Shown piece by piece: positions 23,669 to 50,076 of a stretch of 64,000 nt of DNA (the stretch's first letter is position 1; the number at the start of each line of letters is the position of its first letter). The DNA comes from Nitrosopumilaceae archaeon (GTDB taxonomy: Archaea; Thermoproteota; Nitrososphaeria; Nitrososphaerales; Nitrosopumilaceae), in NCBI GenBank assembly GCA_028279545.1, contig JANQNN010000011.1:62001-126000 (forward strand), written 5' to 3'. The translations under genes and the position numbers were made by a program. Under the pieces are notes generated by a model. It worked only from the letters and a program-made list of their open reading frames with translations, ran no database searches and had not been told where the DNA came from.

Positions 23669-23692
23669 AACGTGGGGCCGACCGGAATCGAA
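23669..23692. repeat. attL: orphan tRNA-Trp 3' end
   Basis: These 24 bases are identical to 50053-50076 and read, on the reverse strand, as the T-loop, the 3' T-stem and acceptor halves of tRNA-Trp plus 4 nt beyond it. No other tRNA parts are present here. The bases before and after the 24 nt differ between the two sites. Confidence 0.9.
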
Positions 23693-23850
23693 TTGTTTGT
23701 CTAGTCATGTTCGCCTAGTTTTTTTTCGCTAAAAACCCATAAATTTTATCTGAAATCCGTACAAAATTATAGAAATTTTTTATTCAATCTTCAGAAAGAA
23801 ATTTCACTTTAAACAAGAAATTAGCTAAATGAATTCCTCCTTAAAGAGTA
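23690..23850 (+). repeat. Composite interspersed repeat, copy A (long + short units)
   Basis: The long unit (about 23690-23757) shares the pattern GAATTGTTTGTCTAG...TTCGCTAAAAACC...AAATTTTATCTGA with 28114 and 32203. The short unit (about 23809-23846) shares AAACAAGAAATTAGCTAAA and TCCTCCTTAAAGAG with five other sites. Copy A starts right at the end of attL. Between here and the gene at 24090 only one tiny frame (23962-24060) is visible. Confidence 0.75.
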
Positions 23851-23961
23851 GGATTTTCAAACTATGTTGATGGAACCCAGAGACTATTTTTATGATTTCA
23901 GATATCGAAGGTGGGTTTTGGGAAATAAGGTTATACTTACTCATTTTGTTCAAAAAGAAAA

Positions 23962-24060
23962 TTAATTTTTCCCCTTTGGAATAACACTAATTTCTTCTCG
24001 ATCTACTTTTGATTTTAAGTCGTATGGACCGTCAAAATCCATATTGATCGCAATTTTCAT
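23962..24060 (-). CDS. Possible tiny protein, 32 aa
   Basis: The reverse frame MKIAINMDFDGPYDLKSKV continues to a TAA at 23962. It looks protein-like (strand, acidic turn, strand) and is divergent from the gene at 24090 with 29 bp between them. No family recognised. It may equally be the start of a larger gene lost in the element. Confidence 0.35.
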   Translation of the reverse strand: MKIAINMDFDGPYDLKSKVDREEISVIPKGKN

Positions 24061-24089
24061 AAAAACTTAATTACTTGCTTTATGATTGT

Positions 24090-25181
24090 ATGATAATGGG
24101 TTCACTATGGGGAACAACTAAAAGTTATTCTGGGTATTTGAAAGAGATTGTTCAGGGTGGTGCTACCGCTGGAGGCGGTACTACTGCAGTAACAACAGTG
24201 ACTACAACCACTACTACCGCCACAGGACTGGGAGGAGCCGCAGTAACTACAACTACAGCTGCAACAGTTGGACAGGGAGCAGCTGCTGGAGCTTTAGCTG
24301 CTGGTGCTGGTACCTTAATAGGGCAAGGTATTGTTTACATTGAAACTTTTTTCTGGAACCCACATGCACCGTTAACAACTAGTTCTAGTAAATTCTTTAC
24401 TTTTGGTAATAATGAGATTGATGAACTTATTAGATCATTATTAACTCATCTGGAGTTTTGGCCCTTGAATTCTTTTCTTGATGAGTTTGACAATTCTTTT
24501 CCTTGGTGGCCTCCACATCCAGCATATCCACAACCTCCACCAGTACCTAAACCATATCGGCCCTCACAACCCAATCCAATTCAACCATTATATCCCCAGC
24601 AAAATAATGTGATTTCCAAACTTCTTTTACTTAACCAAACCACACCAGGGTTAGGTACAATTACTGTCACTTTAATTCGTAGTGGTATACGAACATTAAT
24701 TGATTTAGCTCAAGGAGCTGCATTAGCAAATGCAGGTAAAACAGATGAATTGAAAATTGCCGCAGATTCTGCTTTAAAAAATCATAAAGAATTTACCTAT
24801 GCTCAAAAAGCACTTGCTAAAGTCATTGAAAGCAATAGATCATTAGCAATTACTTTACCTACTTATTCCCTAAAACAATATTCTGAATTTACTGAGCAGG
24901 TAAAAAGAGAAGGCCCTTCTGCCATTCCAGAAATAGAATTTGTACTATTTGACAAAATTTTTGAACTTGCACACGTTCAAACTCCAAATGATCATAGACA
25001 AAACCTTGCGGATTGGGTTGCTGAAGGTCCTACTGAAAACGAAATTAATAGTTTTAAAAAGTCGGCAAATGAATCTCTAACCTTACCTCAAATTTTTTAT
25101 GATACAATAAACTTCTATTGGTCAAAAGTCAATCTGTGGGATTCGCCTTTATTTAAAAAGAAAACCAATCATTCTCACTGA
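24090..25181 (+). CDS. Thr/Ala/Gly-rich protein with membrane-inserting region, unknown
   Basis: Residues 20-85 of this 363-aa protein are almost only Thr, Ala, Gly and Val, ending in a hydrophobic stretch (GTLIGQGIVYIETFF). A proline-rich linker follows (WWPPHPAYPQPPPVPKPYR, near residues 150-175), then a helical C-terminal domain. The low-complexity region could form a glycine-zipper membrane insert. No family recognised. The ATG at 24090 is preferred over TTG 24075, since AACTTAATTA lies about 26 nt upstream. It is the first gene inside the left end of the element. Confidence 0.65.
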   Translation: MIMGSLWGTTKSYSGYLKEIVQGGATAGGGTTAVTTVTTTTTTATGLGGAAVTTTTAATVGQGAAAGALAAGAGTLIGQGIVYIETFFWNPHAPLTTSSSKFFTFGNNEIDELIRSLLTHLEFWPLNSFLDEFDNSFPWWPPHPAYPQPPPVPKPYRPSQPNPIQPLYPQQNNVISKLLLLNQTTPGLGTITVTLIRSGIRTLIDLAQGAALANAGKTDELKIAADSALKNHKEFTYAQKALAKVIESNRSLAITLPTYSLKQYSEFTEQVKREGPSAIPEIEFVLFDKIFELAHVQTPNDHRQNLADWVAEGPTENEINSFKKSANESLTLPQIFYDTINFYWSKVNLWDSPLFKKKTNHSH

Positions 25182-25379
25182 GATTGGCAATATCAAGAAT
25201 TGAAATTTTTTAATCTATTCCACATCTAAAGTAAAGAGATTTTTGTATAAAACGCATTTGTAAAATAAGAGTTTTAGAGATCAAGCAAATATGTCGATGC
25301 TAGGGATCTGGTTTTAAATAAACAATAGAAGGAAAAAGGATAAGGACTTTGATTTTGTTTTAAGAATTAATGTATTAAA

Positions 25380-26305: not shown

Positions 26306-26881
26306 ATGAGAGTATTCATGAAATCTTCTCTTTTTATTTTTTCATTTTTTATTAGTTTGATTTTAATTTGGCCTCTTACATCCGCATTTGGTCAACCTGC
26401 TGGTGACTCAGATTTAGATTTCATAATTGATGAATTTGATGAATGTCCCAATGAACCTGAAACATACAACGATTATCAGGATGAAGACGGATGTCCAGAT
26501 ACCAAACCAAACGAAGGTGGTTGTCTTATTGCAACTGCAACATTTGGTTCTGAGCTTGCACCGCAAGTACAACTTTTACGTGAAATCAGAGACAACTCAC
26601 TCCTACAAACAAAATCAGGAACTTTTTTCATTAATTCATTTAATAATTTCTACTATTCATTTAGTCCGTACATAGCGGATTATGAGCGTGAAAATCCTGT
26701 ATTCAAAGAAATGGTAAAGATTGCAATTACTCCACTGATTTCTTCACTTTCAATTCTAAATTATATTGATATGGATTCAGAAAGTAAAGTGTTAGGATAT
26801 GGAATTAGTTTGATTCTTTTGAATTTCGTAATTTATTTTGGAGTACCAATGGGTATAATTTTTGGAGTAAGAAGAAGATGA
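26306..26881 (+). CDS. Secreted protein with calcium-type repeat and CFI-box-like motif
   Basis: The 191-aa protein has a signal peptide (to about residue 29, AFGQPAG). A thrombospondin type 3-like calcium repeat follows (DSDLDFIIDEFDECPNEP, then DEDGCPD). Next comes GGCLIATATFGSELAPQV, the Cys-box known from archaeal and bacterial surface proteins with a CFI-type C-terminal module. It ends with two hydrophobic segments and a basic tail (GVRRR), so it is probably anchored in the membrane and exposed outside. Confidence 0.78.
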   Translation: MRVFMKSSLFIFSFFISLILIWPLTSAFGQPAGDSDLDFIIDEFDECPNEPETYNDYQDEDGCPDTKPNEGGCLIATATFGSELAPQVQLLREIRDNSLLQTKSGTFFINSFNNFYYSFSPYIADYERENPVFKEMVKIAITPLISSLSILNYIDMDSESKVLGYGISLILLNFVIYFGVPMGIIFGVRRR

Positions 26882-27046
26882 CTAATCCTTTTAAAATCTG
26901 TAAAAAAGAATTTAGGTAAAAAAATCTTCCTTATCAATTTCTCTTAAGAAATGAGTGTTTAGATAAACAATACTTTCAATCCTTTTAATTTCGTGTTCCT
27001 AAAAGGATCAAATTTAAATAGCTAATTCATATAGTATGAGGTTAAG

Positions 27047-28084
27047 ATGCTTAACGATTCCGAGGGCCAGCACTATTGTTCTGTTCCCATTACTCCTGAG
27101 CGAGAATTTGCCCCAGGAGTTTCAAGTAACAGAGCCAGATTAATCAGAACTGCAGAAAAAAAGTGGGTCAATGGAACTCCATTGCATTATTGTTTCTTAG
27201 ACGAACCACATTTGAGAGCTGATGATTCTCAAAAAGAAGTTGTAAAGCAAGCCTTTGAGGTATGGACAAATGTAGGCATTGGGATTAGATTTATCCCGGT
27301 TTCCTCTCCTGATGATGCAGAAATCAAAATTGGTTTTAATCATGATGATGGGTCGTGGTCATATGTTGGCCGAGATATCTTAAGAAAGGAACACACGATG
27401 AATTTTGGATGGGATTTAACCCGACCTGGAGAAATTGATACTGCAATTCATGAAATCGGGCACACACTTGGTTTTCCACATGAACATCAAAACCCCAATG
27501 CTGGAATTGTTTGGAATGAAGAGGCTGTATACTCTGAACTTGCAGGCCACCCAAATTTTTGGTCCCGGGATGAAACCTATTACAACATAATTAGAAAAAT
27601 TTCTCCAGATACGGTAGAGGGAACGACTTGGGATCCAAATTCCATTATGCACTATCCCTTTAAGGCTGGATTAATTATAGAACCAGAAAGATTCCAAAAC
27701 GGTCTTACTCCAAACCCAGGCCTCTCTGAGAAAGACATCTCTCAAGTAAAATTATTTTATCCTGAACTTGAAACAACCTTTCCAGAACTAAAATTACTAG
27801 AATCACAACTCCTTTCAATAATCCCTGGACAGCAAAAAAACTTTGTAGTGTACCCTGATTCATCAAGGGATTACAATTTCAGAACGTTTGGAAATTCAGA
27901 TACTGTCATGGTCCTTTTTGAGCAAGATGGGGATGACCTTCATTATTTGGAAGGAGATGATGATAGTGGAACTGACCGAAATGCACATTTCACTGTACGA
28001 CTTTTAAAAGATAGAAAATATCTTTTAAAAATTAGACTTTATTATAATTTTTCAAGCGGCAATACTGCAGTAATGATGTGGTAA
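27047..28084 (+). CDS. Astacin-like zinc metallopeptidase
   Basis: The zinc motif is HEIGHTLGFPHEH at residues 135-147 (His135, Glu136, His139, His145), the HExxHxxGxxHE pattern of the astacin (M12A) group. SIMHY near residue 203 provides the Met-turn and tyrosine. The last 90 residues look like a bacterial pre-peptidase C-terminal beta domain (FVVYPDSSRDYNFRTFGNSD). No signal peptide is visible at the ATG, which is odd for a secreted-type protease. The gene is followed by repeat copy B. Confidence 0.85.
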   Translation: MLNDSEGQHYCSVPITPEREFAPGVSSNRARLIRTAEKKWVNGTPLHYCFLDEPHLRADDSQKEVVKQAFEVWTNVGIGIRFIPVSSPDDAEIKIGFNHDDGSWSYVGRDILRKEHTMNFGWDLTRPGEIDTAIHEIGHTLGFPHEHQNPNAGIVWNEEAVYSELAGHPNFWSRDETYYNIIRKISPDTVEGTTWDPNSIMHYPFKAGLIIEPERFQNGLTPNPGLSEKDISQVKLFYPELETTFPELKLLESQLLSIIPGQQKNFVVYPDSSRDYNFRTFGNSDTVMVLFEQDGDDLHYLEGDDDSGTDRNAHFTVRLLKDRKYLLKIRLYYNFSSGNTAVMMW

Positions 28085-28113
28085 CCTTACAACTTGACTG
28101 TTCGTAATAATTT

Positions 28114-28280
28114 GAATTGTTTATCTAGCCATGTTCACCTGGTTTTAATCCGCTAAAAACCAATAAATTTTGTCTGAAATTAGAACAAAATTATAGGATT
28201 TTTTATTCTCAATTCAAAAAGATCTTTCTCCTTAAACAAGAACTTAGCTAAAAAAATCCTCCTTATAGAGTGGTCTTATA
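28114..28280 (+). repeat. Composite interspersed repeat, copy B
   Basis: This copy has the same order as copy A: the long unit at about 28114-28180 (GAATTGTTTATCTAG, CCGCTAAAAACC, TTTTGTCTGAAAT) and the short unit at about 28231-28272 (AAACAAGAACTTAGCTAAAA, TCCTCCTTATAGAG). It begins 30 bp after the metallopeptidase stop codon. Confidence 0.75.
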
Positions 28281-28338
28281 ACAAAACAACGTTTCCAAAA
28301 ATAGGAATTTTAAATAAATAATAATATTTGATTAGGAT

Positions 28339-29199
28339 ATGAAAATTCAAATTTTAGCATTAACAATTTCTTCAATAGTTTTAGGGTCTTTTTTCTTTTC
28401 TCAACCATCCTATTCAGAATCTGAAGATGAGATTTACAAAGCACCATTACGTCAAATACGTGATGATGGTATACATCCCAGTAATGTAATTTGTAATGAA
28501 GGGAAGGTATTGTTTTTTAAAATATCAAATAAAATGCCTATATGCATATTTGAAAAATCCATAGATCGTTTCACCAATAATTGGATTGGGTGGTATGGGA
28601 CACATAATGAAACTTTTCTGAATTATTATGATCATGAATATCTTCAAGAGAAAAATTCCATGCTTGATCGAAATACCATAGTTTCGTATGCATTAAATCC
28701 TGTAGAAAATATCGTAGTCTCCAAAGTTAAAGAGGTAATATCGAATATTGATAATAATTCAGTAATTTATGATCCGTTGTATCGTGAAGGAGCATATGAA
28801 ATTGTGGATGAAAATAGTAATGATCCTATAGATTGGAAAGATCCAAGAACATCTATACAGTATAATCGTTCGGCGTGGTTGGCATCTGGAAAAATTCATG
28901 ATCTTGTTTGTGATGAAGAATTAGTAGACATAGATGTCTCTTTATCCAAGGAATCATCTTTCAAAATTTTGAAAAATTTCACTGGCTCTATTTTTCTAAA
29001 TTATAATGACAAAATTTTGATTCAAGAAAACAAGGAAGGAAAGGAAGTGTTTAGTCATTCGTTTATATCTCAAGGAATAACAAATTTTGAATTTGACGAT
29101 AATCTATCTTTGGGCAATTGGTCTGAAAAAGTATGCTCTACAAATCTTTTGCCTAAGGTTTATCTCTACGAAATAACCATTGATAAAATAGGACTTTAA
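28339..29199 (+). CDS. Secreted protein, unknown function
   Basis: The 286-aa protein has a signal peptide (residues 1-26, ending SYSESED), then YKAPLRQIRDDGIHPSNVIC, a segment I associate with surface proteins of ammonia-oxidising archaea. It has cysteines in pairs (VICNEG/MPICIFE, LVCDEE/KVCSTN). No transmembrane anchor after the signal. It is the single gene between repeat copies B and C, like a cassette. Confidence 0.7.
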   Translation: MKIQILALTISSIVLGSFFFSQPSYSESEDEIYKAPLRQIRDDGIHPSNVICNEGKVLFFKISNKMPICIFEKSIDRFTNNWIGWYGTHNETFLNYYDHEYLQEKNSMLDRNTIVSYALNPVENIVVSKVKEVISNIDNNSVIYDPLYREGAYEIVDENSNDPIDWKDPRTSIQYNRSAWLASGKIHDLVCDEELVDIDVSLSKESSFKILKNFTGSIFLNYNDKILIQENKEGKEVFSHSFISQGITNFEFDDNLSLGNWSEKVCSTNLLPKVYLYEITIDKIGL

Positions 29200-29207
29200 T
29201 CAATTTC

Positions 29208-29254
29208 AAATTAAAAGAGAACTTAGCTAAAAAAAATCCTCCTTCTAGAAGTGC
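29208..29254 (+). repeat. Short interspersed repeat, copy C
   Basis: The short unit only: AATTAAAAGAGAACTTAGCT followed by an A-run and TCCTCCTTCTAGAAG. It starts 9 bp after the stop of the secreted protein at 28339-29199. The next 300 bp hold only the zinc-protein remnant at 29348-29490. Confidence 0.7.
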
Positions 29255-29347
29255 TAATGTAACGGAGGCGAGTTTTGTTTAATTGGTTTGATACCCACCT
29301 ATCATGATCTTTGGTTTGTTCGTTTTCCAAATATTCTGAAAAAATGC

Positions 29348-29578: not shown

Positions 29579-30160
29579 ATGGAAAAAAATTCTGAGGAAT
29601 ATGACTCATTTGATAGCACCTATGATGAAAAGCCAGATTTTTTTGGCCATCCATACATAGAATTACAGGAGTATTTTCAAAACTGTCCAATTCGAGGGAA
29701 CCTTCTTGATCTTGGTTGTGGCCAAGGGCGAGATTCATTGTTTTTAGCATCAATTGGATACAATGTTACGGCTGTAGATATTTCAAAAGTTGGAATTGGT
29801 CAAATGATAAAAAAAGCTCAATCCAGAGGACTTTGCATTGAGGGTATTGTTGGGGATGTAAACAATCTAAACCTAGGGCAAAAATTTAATGTGATTTTAA
29901 TTGACATGTTACTCCACGGCTTGGAAGATTCTGTTCAACTGAATTTGCTCAAAAAATGTACGGGATTCCTCAAACAAAATGGGCTTTTGTGCATTGTTTA
30001 TCCTGATGATTTTACCTCCGATCATTTCATGAAAATGCTCAAAGAATTACCTGGTGAGTGGAAGCTGTTAGATGAGATAACAATCAACGATATTCCAAAA
30101 ATAGGCAATGAAACAATTGATTTTAAATTCAAAATGATGGTGTCTCAAATTACCAAGTAA
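29579..30160 (+). CDS. Class I SAM-dependent methyltransferase
   Basis: The 193-aa protein has the SAM motif I LLDLGCGQGRDSLFLASIGY (near residues 41-60), acidic motif VTAVDIS, and post-motif segments VGDVNNLNL and FNVILIDMLLHGLED. This order is like TehB/ubiE-type small-molecule methylases. The substrate cannot be told. It is a single cytoplasmic domain without fusion. It lies inside the element and is convergent with the EEP nuclease gene. Confidence 0.88.
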   Translation: MEKNSEEYDSFDSTYDEKPDFFGHPYIELQEYFQNCPIRGNLLDLGCGQGRDSLFLASIGYNVTAVDISKVGIGQMIKKAQSRGLCIEGIVGDVNNLNLGQKFNVILIDMLLHGLEDSVQLNLLKKCTGFLKQNGLLCIVYPDDFTSDHFMKMLKELPGEWKLLDEITINDIPKIGNETIDFKFKMMVSQITK

Positions 30161-30263: not shown

Positions 30264-31217
30264 TTATTCTTCACGAACTAATTGATCAATTTGAAAATCA
30301 TCAGACCAAACGTCTAACTGAACCCATAGGGGAAGATGATCTGATATTTGATATGTAAATTTACTTTTTGTCATTTCCGGATAAAGAGGTTCAGGATAGA
30401 TTGACCGCCAATCCCCTTGGTAAAAATCAAGTACGCCGCCTTTGTCGTTGAAGATTTGGATTGGATGTCTGTAGTAAAGAATTTGATCATATCTTTTGTC
30501 CTTTGCCAAATTAGTTCCATGTTTGCCCCTAAGACTCTCAGGCATTTGCAATCCATGTTTTGTAATTGCGTGATAAAGGTCATCATCTTCTTTTGGGATG
30601 TTAAAATCACCCATTACGATGAGGTCTTTATCTACAACATGTTCTGATTTTCTCCTTTTTTCAATCCAATCAGCAAGGGTTTCTAAAGATCTTTTTCGTT
30701 CCTTCTCACTTTTCCCCCACCTTATGTGGGCAGTTAGTAGAACAAAATCAAATTTTCCAGCTCGAAAGGAGGCTAAATATGGACTCCTCCACCAAGTTAT
30801 AGTTGGAACATATTCGCCATCCTCATTTTTCGTGCGAATTGGGTCTGCCTCAGCTGCTAACCCAGTAAATGTCAAAACTCGTTTGTCATAAAGATATGCG
30901 ATTCTTTCTTTGTTTCCTCCCCGGTCCATTGCAATATCAGAAAATATTGCCTTCCAATATGGGCCCAAAATATCCATTACTTTGTTGAAATCATCTAAAT
31001 TTTCCCGTAGTTCGACTATTGCAATTAAATCAAAGTTTGATAAAATTTCTGCAATGTAATGAATAGAACTTTTTTCTCTAGGCTTTTTCCCAAACTCACG
31101 AATGTTCCATGTGGCAATGTTTATGGTTTTATCTAACACGGAGGAATCTACGTTTATTCTCTGTCGCAGAGTTTTGATTCCTCTTGCAATTTCTGGAGAA
31201 ATATTGCCATGAAACAT
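30264..31217 (-). CDS. Endonuclease/exonuclease/phosphatase (EEP) family hydrolase
   Basis: The 317-aa protein has the DNase I-like fold motifs in order: INIATWNIREFG, IAIVELREN (catalytic Glu), LLTAHIRWG, MGDFNIP (Asp/Asn) and YQISDHLPLWVQL (Asp-His). The first 25 residues (FHGNISPEIARGIKTLRQR) are an extra N-terminal segment. It may cut DNA or RNA or act on phosphoesters. No signal peptide is present. Confidence 0.88.
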   Translation of the reverse strand: MFHGNISPEIARGIKTLRQRINVDSSVLDKTINIATWNIREFGKKPREKSSIHYIAEILSNFDLIAIVELRENLDDFNKVMDILGPYWKAIFSDIAMDRGGNKERIAYLYDKRVLTFTGLAAEADPIRTKNEDGEYVPTITWWRSPYLASFRAGKFDFVLLTAHIRWGKSEKERKRSLETLADWIEKRRKSEHVVDKDLIVMGDFNIPKEDDDLYHAITKHGLQMPESLRGKHGTNLAKDKRYDQILYYRHPIQIFNDKGGVLDFYQGDWRSIYPEPLYPEMTKSKFTYQISDHLPLWVQLDVWSDDFQIDQLVREE

Positions 31218-32124: not shown

Positions 32125-32202
32125 ACTGATTAAAAATTACCCTACAAGACGATTATTAAAAAATGAAAATCCAAAATCCAATTTTCCTGTTATTATCAAA
32201 TT

Positions 32203-32275
32203 GAATCGTTTGTCTAGTAATGTTCGTGTAGCTTTTATTCGCTAAAAACCATTAAATTTTTTCTGAGATTCTAAA
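32203..32275 (+). repeat. Long interspersed repeat unit, third copy
   Basis: GAATCGTTTGTCTAGTAATG, then TTCGCTAAAAACCATTAAAT and TTTTCTGAGAT match the long units of copies A and B over about 67 nt. The short unit is not attached here. The copy runs into the last codon of the TFB gene on the other strand. Confidence 0.7.
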
Positions 32276-33167
32276 TCAGTTTTATATATTTTTTAAATTC
32301 TTTGAATCTGTTGCGTATGGTAATTGAAGTAATTCCAGACACTTTGGATATTTTGTTTTGAGATATGTTTTCGTTATTTCTAATACATGCCATGTATATC
32401 ACCGTAGCTGATACTGCATCTGGTTTTTTTCCTGAAACTAATTGTTTTTCTTTTAGAGTGTCTAAAATTAATATTGCATCTCTTTTTATTTGCTCAGATA
32501 ACCCCAAATTATTTGAAAATCTAACTATGCTGTTGGTTGAATCAGGCACCGATATTTGCAGATTCAACCGTCGAAATAACATCCTATAACTTTGAGCGAT
32601 GGGTTTTCTTTTCTCATCCATGTTTTTGGAGATCTCAATTATGGTTCGGTTCGTTTCGAAATCTCTGCAGGCAGCATAAATACATGCCCCAACTATTGTC
32701 TTGACTGATCTACCTCTAACTAATTTCTTTTCGGAGGCTTTTCTGTAGAGGTATGCTGCCCGCTCAACTATCCCATCAGAAAGTGCCATCTTTTCTTTTA
32801 GTTTGGCTATCTCCAAAAGAGCAAGCATAAGGTTTCTTTGAGAGGAGGTTTTAACCTTGCTTCTTGAATCCCATATTCTCATTCTATTAAGAGAAGTTTT
32901 CATAGGGCCAGAAACTGGCTTGTGACTTGAATCAAAATTTGATTTCCCAATAACTGTGGATAAACCGCCATCATGACTGGTTATTGATATTTTAGGTCCT
33001 GTTCTTGCATTTTGAAAATCTTCTGAAAACTTTTCAGACGAATAATTGACCATGTTTTTGACAAGTACCTGTCCACAATCCTTGCAAATTCGTTCACCTG
33101 TGTTTTCGTCATCTAATTGGGCAAGGTGGCCACAAAAATTTTGGTCTTGTTTATATTTTAATTTCAA
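32271..33167 (-). CDS. tfb: Transcription initiation factor B carried by the element
   Basis: The 298-aa protein is a TFB: an N-terminal zinc ribbon (FCGHLAQLDD...ERICKDCGQVL, with a CxH instead of the usual CxxC for the first pair), a B-reader/linker, and two cyclin repeats (ALLEIAKLKEKMALSDGIVE, RGRSVKTIVGACIYAACRD; KRDAILILDTLKEKQLVSGK). The recognition helix lies at the end. TFB recruits RNA polymerase to TATA promoters. The gene begins 1 bp after the stop of a tiny zinc protein, so the two form an operon. An element-borne TFB could redirect transcription to element promoters. Confidence 0.93.
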   Translation of the reverse strand: MKLKYKQDQNFCGHLAQLDDENTGERICKDCGQVLVKNMVNYSSEKFSEDFQNARTGPKISITSHDGGLSTVIGKSNFDSSHKPVSGPMKTSLNRMRIWDSRSKVKTSSQRNLMLALLEIAKLKEKMALSDGIVERAAYLYRKASEKKLVRGRSVKTIVGACIYAACRDFETNRTIIEISKNMDEKRKPIAQSYRMLFRRLNLQISVPDSTNSIVRFSNNLGLSEQIKRDAILILDTLKEKQLVSGKKPDAVSATVIYMACIRNNENISQNKISKVSGITSITIRNRFKEFKKYIKLI

Positions 33168-34860: not shown

Positions 34861-35253
34861 TTAAAGCAAGATAGGTTCAAAAACTGGTATTATTTTGTTG
34901 ATTTTTTCATCCTCAAAATTTATCTCAGTTATTAGCAAAACCATATAATTTCCAATTGGGATTGAAATTTTTTCTGCATCCCTTCTTTTTGATGAAACAT
35001 ATCGCACTGGACCAAACAAGTCATCATACTCGTTTCTCATGTTAAGGTCTAGCTTTAACTGCATGTACATCATTTTGCGTTTATCAATAGTGCCAACTGG
35101 TTCAATCTCCTTCCTAAATCCCCCAGCAATTAAATTCCCAAGTGCATTTATCACACCGATAAATTTAACCCCCTTTTGTTCTAAAATCCCATTACAGCAA
35201 TTTTCCAAAACTTCTAATTTGGATTTTGTTAAAATTGTTTGTTGCATTTTCAC
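34861..35253 (-). CDS. Roadblock/LC7-like small protein
   Basis: The 130-aa protein has the strand-helix pattern of a Roadblock/profilin-like domain: KFIGVINALGNLIAGGFRK (near residues 29-47), then YMQLKLDLNMRNEYDDLFG and YMVLLITE. Such domains form dimers in regulatory complexes. The assignment is moderate. Its start overlaps the stop of the zinc protein at 35250-35417 by 4 bp, so they are co-translated. Confidence 0.65.
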   Translation of the reverse strand: MKMQQTILTKSKLEVLENCCNGILEQKGVKFIGVINALGNLIAGGFRKEIEPVGTIDKRKMMYMQLKLDLNMRNEYDDLFGPVRYVSSKRRDAEKISIPIGNYMVLLITEINFEDEKINKIIPVFEPILL

Positions 35254-41244: not shown

Positions 41245-41264
41245 AGCAAAGACCTTTTCAATTT

Positions 41265-41308
41265 GAATTAAACAAGAAATTAGCTAAAAAAAATCCTCCT
41301 TATAGAAT
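41265..41308 (+). repeat. Short interspersed repeat, copy D
   Basis: AATTAAACAAGAAATTAGCT, an A-run and TCCTCCTTATAGAATGAG match the short units of the other copies. It lies just after the MATE stop and about 165 bp before the adhesin gene. Confidence 0.75.
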
Positions 41309-41470
41309 GAGAATTTCCAAACGAGATTTTGGATTTTATTCAAAAAAGAACATAAAATACCGCTGAGAAAATTAAAGAACAATAACCAAAATAAAAAATT
41401 TTTTGAGGCTATTTTTGTAGCTTTATTTTATTACTTGAGATTATACTTAATACCATAATATTCTAAAATT

Positions 41471-44400
41471 TTGTTCTTGGGTATCGGGCAAAAAAGAATT
41501 CTTATAGCTACGCTTTGTGCGGCGGTTTTCGGTGTAATGTTTTCACTAATTGACTTACCAGAAAGTTTTGCAGGAGAAGCATTTCCAGTTTCTGAGCACT
41601 TTTTGAGCTATCAAATCAAAGAAACAAAGAACACACCAAAGTTTGAAAAATTCTATGTTGGGTTATCTGACCAGTTTAGTTCAGGAGAATTTAAAGTCAA
41701 ACAAATCTATAGACTGTTAAATCCAATTGATAAAAATGATGAAGGAATTAACAATACTATAACTCATCTAGTTGGCTATAAGATACAAGTACAAGACAAC
41801 AGGAACAAAGTAAAAGAGACAGTCCTTGTGGAAAATCAGTTTGGAGAACTTTCTTTGGATATTAAAAAAGCAAAGTTATTGCTTGTTCCATCTACAAAAG
41901 ATCTCAACACTCAATCAAAAAAAATTCCATTAATAACATCTGATCACTTCAAGTGTTATGATGTCAAAGTTACAAAGAATACACCAAACTTTAAAAAACT
42001 AAAAGCAGATGTATATGATCCAAACTTTGGCGAAGACCGAACCCTTGATGTTAAAAAACCACGACTATTTTGCACTCCAGTAGAAAAGAATCATAATAAT
42101 CAAGTTAGCCCAATTGTAAACTCTCAAAACCATTTGGTCTGCTATGATGCAAAAAAATCCAAAGGTGAGTCAAACCACCAGAGACTGACTGTTTTTACAA
42201 GCAATCAATTTGGTCCTGAATCCCTAGACACTAAAAAAGAAAGAGAATTGTGTGTTCCATCAACTGTGAATTATCCTGATAATGATTTGGATGGATTTAA
42301 TGCCCTCTCAGATCCTGACGATAATGATCCATGTAACCCAAACTCTCAAAATTCTTTATGTCTTGCAATTGAAAATATTAGTCCTGAACACTTTTTAGCA
42401 TACCAAATCAAAGAGACAAAAAACACACCAAAATTTGAAAAGATTAACGTTGGATTATCTGATCAGTTTACAACAGGCGATGTCAAAGTCAGAAAAATTG
42501 ACCGACTATTGAACCCTATTGATAAAAATGATGAAGGAATCTCAAATGAAATCACTCATTTGGTAGGATACCAGATAAAGGCACAAGACAAGAAAAAAGG
42601 AGCTGAAAAAATACTTGTGGCAAATCAGTTTGGTCTGATTAATCTAGATGTAAAGCGAGAAAAACTACTCCTATTGCCTTCTACTAAAAGTCATGATTTT
42701 TCACCTGCTGCACCACAATTCAATAATGATGATCATTTCAAGTGTTATGACGTCAAAGTAACCAAAAATACTCCCCAGTTTAAGAAGCTAAAAGCTGACG
42801 TTTACGACCCAAACTTTGATGAAGACCGCACATTTGATGTTAAAAAGCCTAAAATGTTTTGTGCCCCAGTAGTGAAAACTCATCATAACTATATTGGCCA
42901 AATTCAAAATCCTGGAGATAATTTGTTGTGTTATGATGTAAAAAAATCAAAAAGTGAGCCAAACCATAAGAAACTAACTGTTTATACAAATAATCAATTT
43001 GGGCCTGAGGCATTAGACACTAAAAAAGAACGAGAGCTTTGTGTTCCTTCAATCATTGTAGTTGATGAGCCTGCAGTTTGTGGGGATGGTATTGTGACTC
43101 CACCAGAGCAATGTGATGATGGAAATACTGATGGTGGAGATGGATGTAGTGCTATTTGTGAAATCGAAGATCAAACAGGTCCCGTTTGTGGAGATAGTAT
43201 CATAACTCCACCTGAGATTTGTGATGATGGTGGTACTAATGGTACAATTCCGGGAGGCTGTAATGATACGTGTACAGGGTTTGTGCCAACAGGTCCCATC
43301 AACCTTCCACCAATGATTACAAGTGATGGTGGAGGAGATACTGCCTCAAAAAGTATAGCAGAGAATACTACACTAGTTACAGATATGCAAACAAGTGATG
43401 ACTTGGATTCAGAAGGTTCTGGATTAACATACAGTTTTACAACTGTAGGAGGTGGCGGTGAAGATAATGCACAATTCTTCATAACCTCAACTACAGGAGT
43501 GTTATCATTTAGTGGTTGCTGCATACCTGACTTTGAGAATCCAGCTGATTTTGATGGTAACAATATGTATGAGGTTCAAGTAACTGTTACTGATTCAGGT
43601 CCAGGAGGTTCTCTTACTGATACTCAAGACATTACAGTGACTGTGACTGATGTTGCAGAAGGCCCCATCAACCTTCCACCAATGATTACAAGTGATGGTG
43701 GAGGAGCAATTGTGGCAATAAATGTGGATGAGAATACTTTTGCAATCACCGATATTCAGGCAACTGATGACTCAGATTCTGAAGGATCTGGACTAACATA
43801 CAGTTTTACAACTGGGAGTGGCGAAGATAATATTTTTGCTGATTTAGATCCAATAGGCGGAATACTAACATTTACTGCTAGACCTGACTTTGAAACGATG
43901 GTAGATAATAATGGCGATGGTGTTTATGATTTAGCAGTTAAAGTCACTGATTCGGGAGGATTATCTGATACTCAAAATCTTTTGGTTACTGTAGATAATG
44001 TACTAATTGAAGCATTTTACATTCTGTCCCTAAACCTTCTTTCCATCCATGGAGATGCAGGTGACGACACTATAACAGTCTCTAAGACCCCTGCTGGAGA
44101 TGAATACCAAGTAAATGGCAGTACCATTCCAATACATGACGGACCAGCAACTGTGGCAGATACTCTAGGAATTGAAATATCTGGATTAGAAGGAAATGAT
44201 ATAATTTGTGCCGACGAGACAAATGGGACAATTCTACCACGACAAGCTCTTTTTGGGGATGGAGGAGAGGATTTACTTTGCGGTAGCGATGGCGAAGATG
44301 AGCTTCTCGGAGGATTAGGAAACGACACATTACGGGGAAGAAATGGTCATGACCTTTTAGTAGGTGGTTCTGGCGATGATGATCTTTTTGGAAATAACGG

Positions 44401-44593
44401 TGAGGATCGTTTAGTAGGAGAGGTAGGAAATGATGAACTATTTGGTGGGGGCGATAATGATCTGCTCTTCGGAAACGAGGATGATGATATTTTACGAGGA
44501 GATGGAGGAGATGATTTACTTGACGGAGGACTTGACACAGATGATTGTGACGGAGGAACAGGATTAGATACCGAAATTGATTGTGAATTTTAG
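41471..44593 (+). CDS. Giant secreted adhesin with RTX calcium repeats
   Basis: The 1040-aa protein has a signal segment (residues 1-35) and two homologous blocks of about 250 residues, each opening with HFL[SA]YQIKETKNTPKFEK (near residues 44 and 307). Next come two cysteine-rich CGDGIVTPPEQCDDG-type repeats of the DUF4215/Myxococcus kind (near residues 536-600) and two cadherin-like domains that start PINLPPMITSDGG. A C-terminal series of GGxGxD RTX nonapeptides follows (near residues 935-1030). RTX repeats fold on calcium outside the cell. The start is a TTG. It lies alone between repeat copies D and E, like a cassette. No type I secretion genes are nearby. Confidence 0.88.
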   Translation: MFLGIGQKRILIATLCAAVFGVMFSLIDLPESFAGEAFPVSEHFLSYQIKETKNTPKFEKFYVGLSDQFSSGEFKVKQIYRLLNPIDKNDEGINNTITHLVGYKIQVQDNRNKVKETVLVENQFGELSLDIKKAKLLLVPSTKDLNTQSKKIPLITSDHFKCYDVKVTKNTPNFKKLKADVYDPNFGEDRTLDVKKPRLFCTPVEKNHNNQVSPIVNSQNHLVCYDAKKSKGESNHQRLTVFTSNQFGPESLDTKKERELCVPSTVNYPDNDLDGFNALSDPDDNDPCNPNSQNSLCLAIENISPEHFLAYQIKETKNTPKFEKINVGLSDQFTTGDVKVRKIDRLLNPIDKNDEGISNEITHLVGYQIKAQDKKKGAEKILVANQFGLINLDVKREKLLLLPSTKSHDFSPAAPQFNNDDHFKCYDVKVTKNTPQFKKLKADVYDPNFDEDRTFDVKKPKMFCAPVVKTHHNYIGQIQNPGDNLLCYDVKKSKSEPNHKKLTVYTNNQFGPEALDTKKERELCVPSIIVVDEPAVCGDGIVTPPEQCDDGNTDGGDGCSAICEIEDQTGPVCGDSIITPPEICDDGGTNGTIPGGCNDTCTGFVPTGPINLPPMITSDGGGDTASKSIAENTTLVTDMQTSDDLDSEGSGLTYSFTTVGGGGEDNAQFFITSTTGVLSFSGCCIPDFENPADFDGNNMYEVQVTVTDSGPGGSLTDTQDITVTVTDVAEGPINLPPMITSDGGGAIVAINVDENTFAITDIQATDDSDSEGSGLTYSFTTGSGEDNIFADLDPIGGILTFTARPDFETMVDNNGDGVYDLAVKVTDSGGLSDTQNLLVTVDNVLIEAFYILSLNLLSIHGDAGDDTITVSKTPAGDEYQVNGSTIPIHDGPATVADTLGIEISGLEGNDIICADETNGTILPRQALFGDGGEDLLCGSDGEDELLGGLGNDTLRGRNGHDLLVGGSGDDDLFGNNGEDRLVGEVGNDELFGGGDNDLLFGNEDDDILRGDGGDDLLDGGLDTDDCDGGTGLDTEIDCEF

Positions 44594-44770
44594 TAATTCT
44601 AAATTTAAAAAATTTTAATTCCTACCTACAATCAGAAAGGATATGATTGCTTGTTTTTCTAATTAGAATCACTTCTACTCCTTTCTCTTGTAAAAAAACT
44701 TTCAAAACCCAATTGCGGCATAGAATAATTAGTTTGATGCCCCTACAAAATCAGGAAAAAACATGAATTT

Positions 44771-44815
44771 ACATTAAAAGAGAAAATAGCTAAAAGAAAT
44801 CCTCCTTAAAGAGAA
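44771..44815 (+). repeat. Short interspersed repeat, copy E
   Basis: ACATTAAAAGAGAAAATAGC, then TAAAAGAAA and TCCTCCTTAAAGAG match the short unit. It lies 178 bp after the adhesin stop, in a 330-bp gap that otherwise holds no visible gene. Confidence 0.75.
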
Positions 44816-44926
44816 GTAATTTAAAAATTGATTTATGACTAATTCCATATGCTAAATTGTAAAAAGGAGATAATTCTGATGGTTGAAAATTTATTTTTTT
44901 CAGTGGTCTGAAGAATCACAATATCC

Positions 44927-45208
44927 TTAACCAAACATTTGTGATAATGTTCTAACGGCATAACATCTGTCATCGAGGTCAGGGTATTTTTCACAGGCCT
45001 CTTCTATATTCTCCAATAGTTTAAGATAGCAACCTGAAACTGCAAGAGAAGAGGCACCATACCGTTCCATTTGTTCACATTCATGAGTACCATTATTCAT
45101 TCTCTTTATTGCCTGTTGTTTCTCCACTTCCAAAAATCCAAGAGGGCCACCAATAGCACCAGCCGCAGCAATCCCAACAATGAATCCAACCGATATGACT
45201 TTATTCAC
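44927..45208 (-). CDS. Small exported Cys-containing protein, 93 aa
   Basis: A signal-like segment (residues 3-22, ISVGFIVGIAAAGAIGGPLG) is followed by a hydrophilic helical domain with four cysteines (HECEQ, SGCYLK, EACEKYPDLDDRCY) that could form two disulfides. No family recognised. It faces away from the TolB-like gene. The 367 bp up to 45576 hold only the flanking repeat at 45412-45467. Confidence 0.65.
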   Translation of the reverse strand: MNKVISVGFIVGIAAAGAIGGPLGFLEVEKQQAIKRMNNGTHECEQMERYGASSLAVSGCYLKLLENIEEACEKYPDLDDRCYAVRTLSQMFG

Positions 45209-45575: not shown

Positions 45576-47438
45576 GTGAATAATTTTCAATTGATAATTA
45601 TTTCAGTCAGTTTTTTGGTTTTAGGTTCACTGGTTTCATCTCAAGAAGCATTTTCAACCACATTTCCTGGAGAAAATGGAAAGATTGTTTTTAGATCGAC
45701 ACAAGATGGAAATCCTGAATTATATATTATGGACTCAGATGGCTCCAACCAAACACGCCTTACATACAGTTCAGACTTTGATGACCGACCTCGTATTTCT
45801 TCTGATGGACAAAAAATTGTATGGGAAATTTCACTTCATAAAATCAATACTATGAACATTGATGGGACTGGTCAAGAGGAAATAGTTGATAGTGAAGATT
45901 TTGTAGTTAGACCAACTTGGTCAACTGATGGCACAAAAATTTCTTTTCGAAATAATGATGAAATTGTTACCATGAATCCTGACGGTAGTAATATTTCAGA
46001 AATAACTAATGGCTATGTTGGACAAGGAAGACATAGCTGGTCACCTGATGGCTCAAAGATTGTTTTTGATGGATCTATGGGTGGTTCTGGAACACAAATC
46101 TATGTTATGAATTCTGATGGAAGTAACATTCAAGCACTAACAAATGTTCCTGCATTTAATGGGAGACCTAGCTGGTCTCCTGATGGATTAAAAATTATTT
46201 TTGATAGCAGTAGATTTGGGAAACATGATATTTTTGTAATGAATTCAGATGGTTCGAACCAAACTAGATTGACTTTTGATCCAGAGCATGACACTTCCGC
46301 AAAATTTTCCCCTGATGGAACTAAAATTGTTTTTATCAGCCAAAGAGATGGAGGTAGCAATGTTTTTTTGATGGATTCAGATGGTTCTAATGTTCAAAAT
46401 TTAAGGAATCTGCCTAGCTCTATAGATGGTCATCCAGATTGGCAACCCCTAAATTCCAACTCTTTTACTGGAAAAAATTCCAAAAGCGGGGAAAGTGATC
46501 AGCACCTAACAAGGCCAACATTTGGAGTAAACCATGAAACATTTGAAATGCTAGTAGATAATGGGTTTAGATTCAATACCCAAAAATTCCAGATCACTGA
46601 TAATCATCATACTGATTTTACAGAGAAGCAAATAACTATCGGAGAAGAAAACACATTTTCAGCTACAGTATATGCTGATAAAGGATTAAAGGTTCAAGAA
46701 TTTCTTTTTGGCATCCCAGAAGCAGGTCAAGCACACTTGGCAGAACTTGGAATAGAGATCTGGTATGATAAAAATGGTAAAATTAAGCAGGTAAAGACTG
46801 TTCAACAGTCAAATGTAGTTGATGTAGATTCTGTTACTGCTACTCATGAAAAATCAAAATGCCAATCCAAAGAAATTGGAAAAAATTGTGATACCACAAA
46901 TGTTTCAATGGTATTTCTAGAACCATTAAAAGACAAAGTATTGGCAATAAAGGCAATTGATAACAAAAATCGATACCAAATAACGTATCTAAACGAAGGA
47001 GTGGATGTAATTGGAGAATCACTAAATCCTATGAACACAAAGATGATTCCATCAACAATAAAAAATGAAGGATTGCTACAGATCACTCAGGTTGAAAAAT
47101 ACAGTCCATTTTGGGTGACTGAAGATGGAAGAACTTTTGAGATGAACAGTTTTGGTTCATTCAAGCAGGTTGATCCAGAGTTTGAACGATTTGATGATTC
47201 TGGAACTGCATATACAAGGATGCATTCAGATTTTGACAAAATTGTCTTATATGAACAAAAAAGAGCACAAGATGTTTTTGACTATACTAACCTAATCTCA
47301 GAGTTATCTGATAGTTTTGAGCATCATTTTGAAAATACAGAACGGATGAATGAGGAAATAAAAAAAGAAATGTCCATTCAAGAAGACATTGCAAATGATA
47401 TCTTAGATAGAATGGATAAACAAACTAGGTATTACTAA
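45576..47438 (+). CDS. Secreted TolB-like beta-propeller protein
   Basis: A signal segment (to about residue 28) precedes six or so TolB/PD40 repeats of the type [20 protein letters not shown] and [17 protein letters not shown] (residues 30-290). The C-terminal 330 residues are a second domain with [20 protein letters not shown] and [18 protein letters not shown], which I associate with surface proteins of ammonia-oxidising archaea. It ends in a helical tail. The start is GTG. It probably binds partners at the cell surface. Confidence 0.82.
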
Positions 47439-47473
47439 AATTATTGTTTAATTTTGAAAATTTCAAGGAATTG

Positions 47474-47665: not shown

Positions 47666-48715
47666 TTAGATTTTATTTTTTTTTCTCCCAATTGCAAAAA
47701 TGATTCCTGCAACAATGCCTCCAATGATTGCAATTGTAAGCAAAACTATCACATAGATAAAGCCGTAATCATAATCACGTTCAGGTTTCAAATTTGGAGG
47801 AGGCTCTTTTTCATTAAATGTGTCTTCCCATTTGGCATCAGTTACAGAATCCTCATTACCTGAACTCACTAAACAGATACCATCTTGCAGTGTTGTACCT
47901 GGCCCGCAATTCTCAAGGATAAGGCTGTCTTGTTCGGGTTCTGACTCTGGTTCAGGGGAAGGGCCATCATGAGTCCATCTTGCAGGGGCTTCCTCATACA
48001 ATAGAACAAATGGTACATCGCCTATCAGTCCTTGGACTTTGTTTCCAATAGTCAAATCTGGCGTCCATAAAACCAGAATGCCTCTTTCATAGTCTATTGC
48101 AATTGATGCAATCGGCAATTCAGTATGATCTAATCCATGGCTAAACAAGCTATCCATGATATCATCTAGTTCCCTATCAGTTAGTTTTGGGGATTTGGCA
48201 GGCAATAAAAAAGAGCCGCCAGATAGTGCATCCAGGTAAGACTCTCTTTCGTTTGCATCTTGGTATTGTTGTAAGGGTTCCTCGTTTTCATTTGAAAAAT
48301 AGTTACCATCCTCAGGCCCTGGCTCCCATATGTAATCAGCAGGAGGGGCAGTGATCTTTGTAGTGCATTGGTTTGTTTCACCGTTTGTTACGTATACTTT
48401 GTAGGTTGTCCCAATTTTGTAATCTACATTGGTTGATGACCTCGTTATTGTGTCGTTTTGGAGAAACATCATTCCGGTGTTTTGGAAAATGAATTTTGGA
48501 GTATTGACTTTCCCTTTTATAACATCATGAATAAGGAAAGTAACTTTTTGCGGCCCATCATAATTATCAAGACGTGTGACCGTTCCCGTGAATGCTAGTT
48601 CAGATTCTTTTAAAACAGAATCATAGTTTACATCCTCAATACACGAAGCTGAGACATTAGGAATTGCCAGAGGAGCAAATGCGAATAACGCCATTATCAA
48701 AAATCCAGTTTTCAT
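47666..48715 (-). CDS. Membrane-anchored extracellular protein, NTR/TIMP-like start
   Basis: The 349-aa protein has a signal peptide (to residue 23, NVSASC). Directly after it comes CIEDVNYDSVLKESELAFTG followed by TVTRLDN, the beginning typical of NTR/TIMP-like domains (Cys at the mature start, then E-[AL]-F-x-G-x-V). A long acidic and proline-rich middle and a single membrane span with a KKNK tail end it (about residues 320-343). The outer domain is thus tethered to the membrane. Partner unknown. Confidence 0.72.
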   Translation of the reverse strand: MKTGFLIMALFAFAPLAIPNVSASCIEDVNYDSVLKESELAFTGTVTRLDNYDGPQKVTFLIHDVIKGKVNTPKFIFQNTGMMFLQNDTITRSSTNVDYKIGTTYKVYVTNGETNQCTTKITAPPADYIWEPGPEDGNYFSNENEEPLQQYQDANERESYLDALSGGSFLLPAKSPKLTDRELDDIMDSLFSHGLDHTELPIASIAIDYERGILVLWTPDLTIGNKVQGLIGDVPFVLLYEEAPARWTHDGPSPEPESEPEQDSLILENCGPGTTLQDGICLVSSGNEDSVTDAKWEDTFNEKEPPPNLKPERDYDYGFIYVIVLLTIAIIGGIVAGIIFAIGRKKNKI

Positions 48716-48912: not shown

Positions 48913-49179
48913 TTGGAGATTTTTTTTAAACCTGTTCCTCATAAAATAGCTGGAGACCGTTTTACGGAATATCGCGTTATCAAACAGAGGACTTGGTGGT
49001 GTTGTAAGAGCCTAAAAGATCATGATTCCAACTATGCTTTATGGAACATAAAATGGGGAAAGTTTTACTTTAAAGACATTAGTCCAAACGGAAGCATGGC
49101 CTTCTTTCCAATGCATTTCTGTCCATATTGTGGAGAAAAAATAGAGTATAAGGAATTCAAAAATGAAGAAACCAAATAA
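48913..49179 (+). CDS. Small zinc-binding-like protein, 88 aa
   Basis: From a TTG start the protein reads MEIFFKPVPHKIAGDRFTEY, then RTWWCCKSLKDHD and FCPYCGEKIEY. The paired cysteines WWCC and CPYC could hold one zinc. No family recognised. It is the last forward gene before repeat copy F and the integrase. Confidence 0.6.
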   Translation: MEIFFKPVPHKIAGDRFTEYRVIKQRTWWCCKSLKDHDSNYALWNIKWGKFYFKDISPNGSMAFFPMHFCPYCGEKIEYKEFKNEETK

Positions 49180-49296
49180 ATGATTTTTTCAATCTTCATC
49201 TTTTTAACAGAATTTGTCTTTACGTATTAAATCAAATCTTATTGAAAATCGTGTCCAACTCATGCAAATCAATAAACAAAAAATCAGGTCACAATA

Positions 49297-49340
49297 TGCA
49301 AGAAATTAGCTAAAAAAATCCTCCTTATGGAGACAGGAAT
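49297..49340 (+). repeat. Short interspersed repeat, copy F
   Basis: GCAAGAAATTAGCTAAAAAA followed by TCCTCCTTATGGAGACAGG matches the short unit. It is the copy nearest the right end of the element, 121 bp from the broken end of the integrase gene. Confidence 0.75.
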
Positions 49341-49460
49341 TAGCACCAATGTTACAGGCTATCTATAAAAAATAATGCCATCTTTTTATGCCTGAAAATT
49401 ATACAAAACTTACGTTTTGACTTTAGTTAAGTTGTCTGAGAATCGTTAAAGTAGTAACGT

Positions 49461-50009
49461 CTAATGTTTTTCAAGTCGAGTCTCTGTATCTGGTCTAAAT
49501 TTGTTCCAAAATAGGCCCAAGATTGCCTTGTCACGAATGTTGTCGCAATATTTTACAACCAAAAGCAACTCTTCGTTCTCCCATACATCGTTTGGAGTAT
49601 AGCTACAGTCTCGTTTGTTCTTCTTCTTTTTTATGCTGGCAAAGGGTTCAGGTGTGTTCCAGTCTTCCCTATCCAATGTAATTTCATGGTTGTATAGCCA
49701 TCTGTAAAACCCAGTTAATCTTGCCAAGTAATCATTCCAAGTCCTAACCCATTTCTTCTCAGGATCTTCTTCAATTGATTTTCTGCGTTTGTTTAGAAAT
49801 TCTAGCACATCATCTCTTGTAACATCTTTGAAATCTTTGTTTCCAATATCACGTGAATACAATTTTAACACCCGCAAATAGTTTGAAGCATTTGTCAACG
49901 TGCTGTCTTCCTCATCAACCAAAAAGTCTTTGAATTGCAACAACACTTTCTTGTGAGCCTCTGACAAGTTTGTAATTTGTCTAATTATTGTTTCGGGTTT
50001 CGTTGTCAT
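49461..50009 (-). pseudogene. int: Tyrosine recombinase (integrase), truncated
   Basis: The frame encodes 182 residues: a SAM-like core-binding domain (LLQFKDFLVDEEDSTLTNAS, LNKRRKSIEE, WNDYLARLTGFYRWLYNHE) and the first part of the catalytic domain (DNIRDKAILGLFWNKFRP). It then stops at KH. Reading the next bases in another frame gives LKNIRRYYFN, which fits the expected continuation, so a frameshift is likely; after 15 more codons that frame also stops. The catalytic Arg-His-x-x-Arg and Tyr segments are absent. The gene starts 47 bp from the tRNA-Trp end, the usual place for the integrase of such an element. Confidence 0.85.
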
Positions 50010-50052
50010 TTTCCCATTTTATTACGAATTACAGCTATATGAACCCGATAGG

Positions 50053-50076
50053 AACGTGGGGCCGACCGGAATCGAA
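50053..50076. repeat. attR: within the intact tRNA-Trp 3' end
   Basis: The 24 bases are identical to 23669-23692. They cover the 3' half of the T-arm, the 3' acceptor strand and 4 nt beyond the tRNA, exactly the segment often used as attachment core by tyrosine integrases. Confidence 0.9.

Follow-up and report, generated by a model that had tools for sequence, protein, structure and literature searches.

A cryptic integrated element in the tRNA-Trp gene of a Nitrosopumilaceae archaeon, with a decayed integrase and element-tied repeats that suggest modular assembly

The window analysed here is a stretch of 64,000 nucleotides from contig JANQNN010000011.1 of a Nitrosopumilaceae archaeon, and positions 23669 to 50076 of it are very probably a 26.4-kb cryptic integrated element (genomic island), inserted in the 3′ end of a tRNA-Trp gene with a 24-nt duplication and trapped there by decay of its integrase. 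Such an element had been proposed from the letters of the window (the original prediction); this proposal is supported, as relatives do carry the empty site and the repeat at the element's limits does not recur elsewhere in the genome. The element also carries two families of repeats, which the original prediction did not describe and which suggest that its cargo was put together from modules.

Results

The target site and its duplication

The two limits were predicted to carry the same 24-nt sequence, with a whole tRNA at the right copy alone, and this is what is found. The two copies are identical (24/24), the window has no third copy when up to 3 mismatches are allowed (shuffle mean 0.00, 100 shuffles), and a 23-nt version occurs, with up to 2 mismatches, at these two places only in the 1.92-Mb genome. 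The right copy ends a tRNA-Trp(CCA) gene with introns of 24 and 53 nt, and removal of both yields a 75-nt tRNA-Trp(cca) in ARAGORN; because of these two introns the gene was missed by default ARAGORN and by Rfam at its gathering score. The left copy lacks the remainder of the tRNA. The att direct repeats are accompanied by a whole target gene on one side, and this is the side of the integrase.

Among 80 aconitase-bearing loci of relatives (the best 80 of 144), 56 have an empty site, with tRNA-Trp directly downstream of aconitase and no insert; 36 of these carry a two-intron gene, as here (judged by 3′ part and span), and 20 an intronless tRNA-Trp(CCA) at the same position. This empty-locus set includes L092 and L118, whose contigs end inside the tRNA gene, while L136, scored as a fragment and probably an intronless tRNA-Trp, was ambiguous and was kept out of the empty count. 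A whole tRNA-Trp lies 0.18-4.9 kb off, with no fragment, in 7/80 loci; 8/80 have no tRNA-Trp in the DNA stretch examined and 4/80 end at once. Three loci (L100, L109 and L140) are occupied, and L108, on a cut contig, has a fragment. In a second set of 20 regions, partly drawn from the same genomes, the aconitase end adjoins a whole tRNA-Trp in 14; L055 is occupied, L054 has 1.6 kb between aconitase and tRNA-Trp, L064 and L066 have only about 100-125 nt from aconitase to the next gene and lack a core even with 3 mismatches allowed, and the stretches taken for L056 and L061 contain no aconitase.

Two of the occupied sites hold smaller elements at the same tRNA-Trp: a 2.3-kb insert in genome G063 (L055/L109), with a methyltransferase and other genes, and a 1.9-kb insert in G163 (L100/L034), encoding a 476-aa protein without Pfam match. 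Their left cores have one and two mismatches, respectively. The G063 element has both ends in common with the window element and a different cargo, and is thus a sister element at the same site. The tRNA-Trp site is an integration hotspot, and the window element is integrated there.

Several further observations concern this site. In another Nitrosopumilus (L140:10277-15393) an unrelated 5.1-kb insert, encoding a HinP1I-type restriction enzyme, a D12 methyltransferase and a DDE transposase, lies between a 30-nt fragment and a whole tRNA-Trp as exact 30-nt repeats. At L109 the left core of G063 stands 486 nt after the aconitase end and is preceded by AATAGGAACG, which is much like the right arm before the G063 right core, GATAGGAACG; a remnant of a second element may be present there, judging by this likeness. 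G077 has gained 1.6 kb with one gene at the site, presumably membrane-channel-like, and in G083, of the same genus, the cluster adjoining tRNA-Trp (L056:11037-17200) is one which we take to be urease-like; no aconitase occurs in the 19.7-kb stretch that holds it. A contig titled as a Chitinophagaceae bacterium metagenome-assembled genome (L113, JAGXRG010000032.1) carries an archaeal aconitase (85% identical) and an empty tRNA-Trp site, and is probably misbinned.

A broken integrase and its relatives

The integrase gene predicted beside tRNA-Trp is present but is reduced to a remnant of 182 aa: Pfam recognises a SAM-like domain at its N terminus and no catalytic one, and the frames past the stop codon are broken. 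A relative in G392 matches at 75% to about residue 168 of the window integrase and then continues in frame to residue 247; its frame of 251 aa is the longest remnant, and we read its extra C-terminal part as putatively catalytic. Remnants lie beside tRNA-Trp in G063 (53% over 77 aa) and G163 (69% over 74 aa), about 30 codons are left in G151 (by eye), and other broken relatives adjoin tRNA-Pro (G041, G163), tRNA-Arg (G041) and tRNA-Val (G182). In related loci the remnant keeps a nearly fixed distance from the tRNA end.

A class-wide search (300 genomes, small alignment) was compared at E < 1e-15 between the host's family (f1) and another family of the order (f8, with genomes of 1.6-4.9 Mb, presumably Nitrososphaeraceae). 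The eight f1 copies have frames of 80-251 aa and none reaches 300 aa, against 63 of 93 f8 rows with frames of at least 300 aa (Fisher p 2.4e-4), the rows being non-independent, some frames being cut by contig ends, and 11 of up to 19 candidates having been scored in some f8 genomes; in two of the 63 a stop interrupts the match. At 10 of 16 f8 loci (L182-L197) the open frame starts at most about 90 nt from, or overlaps, the 3′ end of a tRNA or tRNA-like sequence on the same strand (distances by hand), the tRNA of two of the ten having an unassigned anticodon. The long f8 frames at these loci have RHSAI- and RYIKRRM-like stretches and a CxxC tail (motifs by eye) that could form a zinc ribbon. 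An initial scan of genome contigs confirmed no relatives of the integrase, and none were found in viral contigs, plasmids or phages. Because the integrase is broken, an excised circle, which the original prediction had proposed to look for, is unlikely without an integrase acting in trans.

A split (suicidal) integrase of the Sulfolobus spindle-shaped virus (SSV) type was considered and rejected: the att site precedes the start of the integrase gene and does not interrupt it, the frame breaks at a point remote from att, and no piece of an integrase was found at the left end of the element.

Between the tRNA end and the integrase, a stretch partly conserved between related loci holds a right-arm motif. 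With one mismatch allowed, this motif occurs at 8 places in 7 of 200 family genomes, six of them directly at a tRNA end; three of the eight had defined the motif, and three of the other five are at a tRNA end. G145 has the arm motif only and no integrase (by eye). An exact arm motif also directly follows a tRNA-Arg (G123:C1:951353; L177/L203), where no integrase frame was seen by eye; a different tRNA may here carry a bare scar.

Repeats tied to the element

Repeat A, of about 60 nt with core consensus AAGAAATTAGCTAAAAAAAATCCTCCTTATAGAG, has seven copies in the element, all on the plus strand and all intergenic, at 41-63 bits, the next match in the window scoring 12.4. The probability that a random 60-mer of the element falls wholly between genes is 0.155, so that seven of seven would be expected about twice in a million. 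A strict pattern has five matches in the genome, all inside the element, and none in 120 other family genomes; the profile has no match above 18.1 bits in nine other genomes of the genus. Across 221 genomes of the order there are five matches outside the host genome, at 21.6-23.5 bits, four overlapping open frames of at least 362 aa and the fifth (L362) beside one; we take these as chance, and likewise the occurrences of the pattern in viral contigs, once in each of 61 stretches.

In the host genome outside the element, a profile scan (150 of 2102 first-look candidates scored; background from 15.5 bits down) gave one clear copy, at C37:49432 (34.7 bits), and a half copy 500 nt before it, at C37:48932 (16.2 bits, 23/23 consensus letters). 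Because the half copy scores near background, the pair rests on nearness (E 1.4e-4 in a 20-kb stretch). The two, at C37:48932-49486 (L332:12933-13487), are in direct orientation and flank a single 105-aa gene. The half copy lies 24 nt after a third glutamine-synthetase-type gene, which has a high-identity orthologue (79%) in one other genome of the genus only; for an empty-site comparison, this single orthologue locus carries other genes downstream.

Repeat B measures about 100 nt. Its first copy begins at the inner end of the left att core, and two more, in the same orientation, lie inside the element; the three are 73-79% identical. In 100 other family genomes, searched with stricter filters, the left end of the G063 element stands alone as a clear relative (40 bits; next 20), and in direct comparison it scores 39.9 bits (1.3e-10). 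Since the inner copies have no trace of an att core and the copies are only 73-79% identical, repeat B may well be older than this integration.

Two roles for repeat A were tried and rejected. A structured repeat is not supported, the seven copies folding no better than shuffles (z -0.68 to +1.18 as RNA, -0.44 to +1.57 as DNA); a promoter role fails on the distance to start codons, which is not fixed. The fold z-scores of the repeat B copies are 0.89, -1.77 and 0.13 (RNA) and 0.04, -1.44 and 1.18 (DNA).

Cargo genes

Pfam bears out the predicted transcription factor B (TFB), transporters and large surface proteins. The predicted trio of related zinc proteins exists as three CxxC proteins, of which 1 and 3 are linked by a common 58-nt DNA repeat (79%) and 2 was likened to them by eye. 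Twenty proteins (including the integrase remnant) were scanned against Pfam, ten against PHROGs and ten against PADLOC. No virus, capsid, conjugation or replication family was found among the 20 proteins against Pfam and 10 against PHROGs, in keeping with the predicted lack of capsid, polymerase and helicase genes, a negative that covers neither the three small zinc proteins nor g18, and g21 in its PHROG part only. PHROGs assigned the TFB to a family of unknown function and otherwise gave Arc-like repressors and a single weak match, PADLOC one weak match, and g1, g2 and g8 have no relatives in viral contigs.

The metalloprotease-like g4 has partial matches in three of 199 other family genomes (30-44% identity), none full-length, and relatives on bacterial plasmids (28.6-37.5% identity among the matches listed), and for these reasons its origin is likely bacterial. 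It also matches the NCBIfam model beta-glucuronidase AbsR1 over nearly its full length, at 394.6 bits and below the cut-off of 650, a family name that disagrees with the Pfam matches to astacin and matrixin. The DUF7450 half of g17 has paralogues, 53-66% identical, outside the element (G000:C56:164816-166282, L166; G000:C26:42001-62000, L167), including three stretches about 34-41 kb upstream of it; no other genome appears among the matches listed for 400 genomes of the order (at most 2 candidates per genome scored).

Table 1. Features of the integrated element and its borders, in window coordinates.
Feature	Position	Strand	Basis
Left att core, 24 nt, tRNA-Trp 3′ fragment	23669..23692	+	exact match to 50053-50076; pair unique in genome as 23-mer
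Repeat B copy 1 = element left end	23688..23789	+	profile 96.9 bits; homologous to G063 element left end
Repeat A copy 1	23799..23861	+	profile 62.8 bits
g1, unknown protein, 368 aa	24075..25181	+	no Pfam, PHROG, PADLOC, NCBIfam match
g2, unknown protein, 286 aa	25380..26240	-	no Pfam, PHROG, PADLOC match
g3, CFI-box-CTERM protein	26306..26881	+	NCBIfam NF041770, 1.6e-22
Repeat A copy 2, diverged	26894..26950	+	profile 41.2 bits
g4, astacin/M12-type metalloprotease-like protein	27047..28084	+	Pfam 1.1e-12
Repeat B copy 2, internal	28112..28213	+	profile 94.5 bits
Repeat A copy 3	28224..28283	+	profile 61.8 bits
g5, secreted-type protein, 286 aa (signal by eye)	28339..29199	+	no Pfam match
Repeat A copy 4	29202..29262	+	profile 57.7 bits
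g6, SAM methyltransferase (TehB-like)	29579..30160	+	Pfam
g7, endonuclease/exonuclease/phosphatase family	30264..31217	-	Pfam
g8, unknown protein, 246 aa	31384..32124	+	no Pfam, PHROG, PADLOC, NCBIfam match
Repeat B copy 3, internal; overlaps TFB gene 3′ end by 25 nt	32201..32295	+	profile 84.2 bits
g9, TFB	32271..33167	-	Pfam TFIIB 2.8e-40
Small zinc (CxxC) protein 1, 62 aa	33169..33357	-	sequence reading, DNA repeat
Small zinc (CxxC) protein 2, 67 aa	33509..33712	+	sequence reading
g10, LPG-synthase-TM-type membrane protein	33873..34832	-	Pfam
g11, DUF6659	34861..35253	-	Pfam
Small zinc (CxxC) protein 3, 55 aa	35250..35417	-	DNA repeat, sequence reading
g12, CopG/Arc-type (ribbon-helix-helix) regulator	35570..36115	+	Pfam, PHROG
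g13, universal stress protein	36635..37102	+	Pfam
g14, CitMHS-type transporter	37299..38696	+	Pfam
g15, DUF1722	39167..39658	+	Pfam
g16, MATE efflux transporter	39910..41244	+	Pfam, NCBIfam
Repeat A copy 5	41259..41320	+	profile 58.2 bits
g17, surface-type protein, 1040 aa: DUF7450, DUF4215, cadherin, RTX repeats	41471..44593	+	Pfam
Repeat A copy 6	44765..44826	+	profile 55.2 bits
g18, 93-aa ORF	44927..45208	-	open reading frame
g19, PD40/TolB-type propeller protein	45576..47438	+	Pfam, NCBIfam
g20, 349-aa protein	47666..48715	-	no Pfam, PHROG, NCBIfam match
g21, 88-aa ORF with CxxC	48913..49179	+	weak PHROG/PADLOC matches only
Repeat A copy 7	49289..49342	+	profile 51.1 bits
Broken tyrosine integrase, N-terminal domain only, 182 aa	49461..50009	-	Pfam, frame reading, G392 comparison
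Right-arm motif CCTATCGGGTTCATAT, between tRNA end and integrase	50037..50052	-	alignment of related loci
Right att core = 3′ end of whole tRNA-Trp gene	50053..50076	+	exact repeat; spliced tRNA call
tRNA-Trp(CCA), two introns at 50155-50178 and 50092-50144	50055..50208	-	ARAGORN on spliced form

Discussion

We propose that a tyrosine recombinase inserted a free element at the tRNA-Trp 3′ end and so duplicated 24 nt. The enzyme would have been of the kind that is still intact and abundant in f8; it may have recognised the tRNA end together with the arm motif carried by the element, and would have acted while the element was free. With its later loss the cargo (surface proteins, protease, transporters, stress protein, TFB and zinc proteins) could have become fixed as accessory host genes. 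More tentatively, repeats A and B might mark joints at which blocks of cargo were joined before this integration. The repeats suggest modular assembly; its mechanism is conjectural, and their role as joints is the least certain part of the proposal.

Several observations weigh against an integrated element with this history. Only 3 of the 7 copies aligned have the arm motif in exact form, the rest differing by 2-8 mismatches; GC and skew, inspected by eye, do not mark the element's borders; no recognisable repeat B stands at the left end of the G163 (L100) element; and no trace of an att core or right arm was found upstream of the inner repeat B copies (p 0.47-0.88). The site also changes by other gene gain, as the eight loci lacking tRNA-Trp and the seven with a displaced one show, and a search across genomes with two cargo proteins showed no other genome that shares the cargo. 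Some f1 frames of 307-458 aa are intact; they match the integrase more weakly (E 1e-4 to 1e-8), and we take them as other integrase families. Assembly error could account for part of the integrase decay, yet seven other copies are likewise broken.

That the site gains other genes in some relatives, the 1.6 kb in G077 being one example, might favour a merely variable chromosomal region in which a tRNA-like 24-mer arose by chance and no element integrated. We find this scarcely credible: no exact 24-mer is expected by chance, related loci have the integrase remnant at an almost constant distance from the tRNA end, the same site in G063 is occupied by a sister element whose left end is homologous, and the site is empty in most of the loci compared. 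A different history, which also makes use of the hotspot, is that at least three related elements integrated successively at tRNA-Trp to form a tandem array with decayed inner junctions, repeat B being their former left ends. Repeat B is indeed an element left end, homologous to that of G063, its two inner copies have the same orientation and are followed by unrelated genes, and tandem integration at one site has been described for archaeal and bacterial elements (PMC6563490). Such accretion is nevertheless unlikely, as the inner junctions lack the core and right-arm traces mentioned above, pieces of the G392 integrase have no tblastn match below E 0.03 outside the integrase gene, and the 73-79% identity of repeat B stands against 24/24 in the att cores, an identity that would have a chance of about 0.02-0.05 if both were of one age, with half of the repeat B divergence assumed in the unconstrained core copy.

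For the repeats themselves, a tentative possibility, which we hold to be doubtful, is that they are regulatory or maintenance sites (operator, partition or replication) read by the TFB, the zinc proteins or the CopG-type protein. The element encodes all of these, and the intergenic placement of every repeat A copy in one orientation would suit such sites; the five copies that precede a plus-strand gene do so at 56 to 317 nt from its start, unlike a promoter, no copy folds better than shuffles as RNA or DNA, and one clear copy and a half copy stand outside the element around one small gene. The boldest alternative, and to our mind quite improbable, is that the island is cassette-built, with repeats A and B as sites of recombination or capture after gene ends, at which an archaeal tRNA-targeting integrase joined unrelated blocks in one orientation, by accretion of a non-integron kind. 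Each of the eight repeat sites follows a plus-strand gene (aconitase, g3, g4, g5, g8, g16, g17 and g21), which agrees with this model but was seen post hoc, 14 of 22 genes being on the plus strand anyway. Were it true, the copy and half copy on C37 would enclose a one-gene cassette outside the island, and the joined blocks of unrelated genes would be partly bacterial.

Taken as a trapped integrated element, the island stands at the large end of a series of fossils graded by size at one tRNA gene, which goes from its 26 kb through elements of 2.3 and 1.9 kb and some 30 codons of a remnant down to the arm motif by itself. This suggests that a mobile integrase family whose members are mostly whole in one archaeal family persists in another, related one through its scars and the cargo it left trapped, and hence that an island can remain after the machinery of its arrival has gone. 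Should the repeats be joints, a testable route would be at hand for the assembly of surface and transport genes of mixed origin in ammonia-oxidising archaea.

Comparison with known systems

No earlier report of such repeats, or of a cassette-like structure, in these archaea was found in a literature search outside which most subscription journals and supplements lay. An integron was considered and rejected: the z-scores of repeat A do not show the single-strand fold of attC sites, no dedicated attC model having been run. Like integrons and clusters of attC sites lacking integron-integrases (CALINs) in Archaea, as far as consulted (PMC9668308), the element has repeats of one orientation between genes beside a tyrosine recombinase gene; in contrast, its repeats fold no better than shuffles, its blocks hold one to many genes in both orientations, and its recombinase is a broken remnant without the catalytic half. 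An SSV-type element, with att inside the integrase and gene halves at opposite ends, was likewise rejected, as was a provirus or an integrative and conjugative element, there being no capsid/terminase or relaxase/VirB4-type genes among the proteins scanned. Classical (pNOB8-type) archaeal tyrosine integrases share with ours an unsplit gene on one side of att (PMC8371274, in the parts consulted), but ours has lost its catalytic domain and its intact f8 relatives end in a CxxC-rich tail.

The closest known systems are the thaumarchaeal cryptic integrated elements (CIE) of Krupovic et al. 2019, with a median att repeat of 17 bp and sizes of 2.6-98 kb (PMC6563490). The window element resembles them in its tRNA 3′-end target, short att repeats, integrase gene (here a broken one) at one end, size within range, and lack of virus and conjugation genes; as expected of a CIE, the site is empty in relatives, and no virion, conjugation or casposase genes occur among the scanned proteins, the integrase gene alone being reduced to an N-terminal remnant. 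The cargo mix, which the original prediction had thought non-standard, is less unusual than that, as UspA, transporters and S-layer proteins have already been described as CIE cargo (PMC6563490). The terms 'tRNA-Trp', 'TFB' and 'pseudogene' are absent from the main text of that paper, its supplement lying outside our search. From the CIE described there, the window element differs in its decayed integrase, in a left end that is repeated inside and in seven element-tied intergenic repeats. Its kind, the cryptic integrated element, is thus known (PMC6563490), and it is the repeat architecture that is the unusual part.

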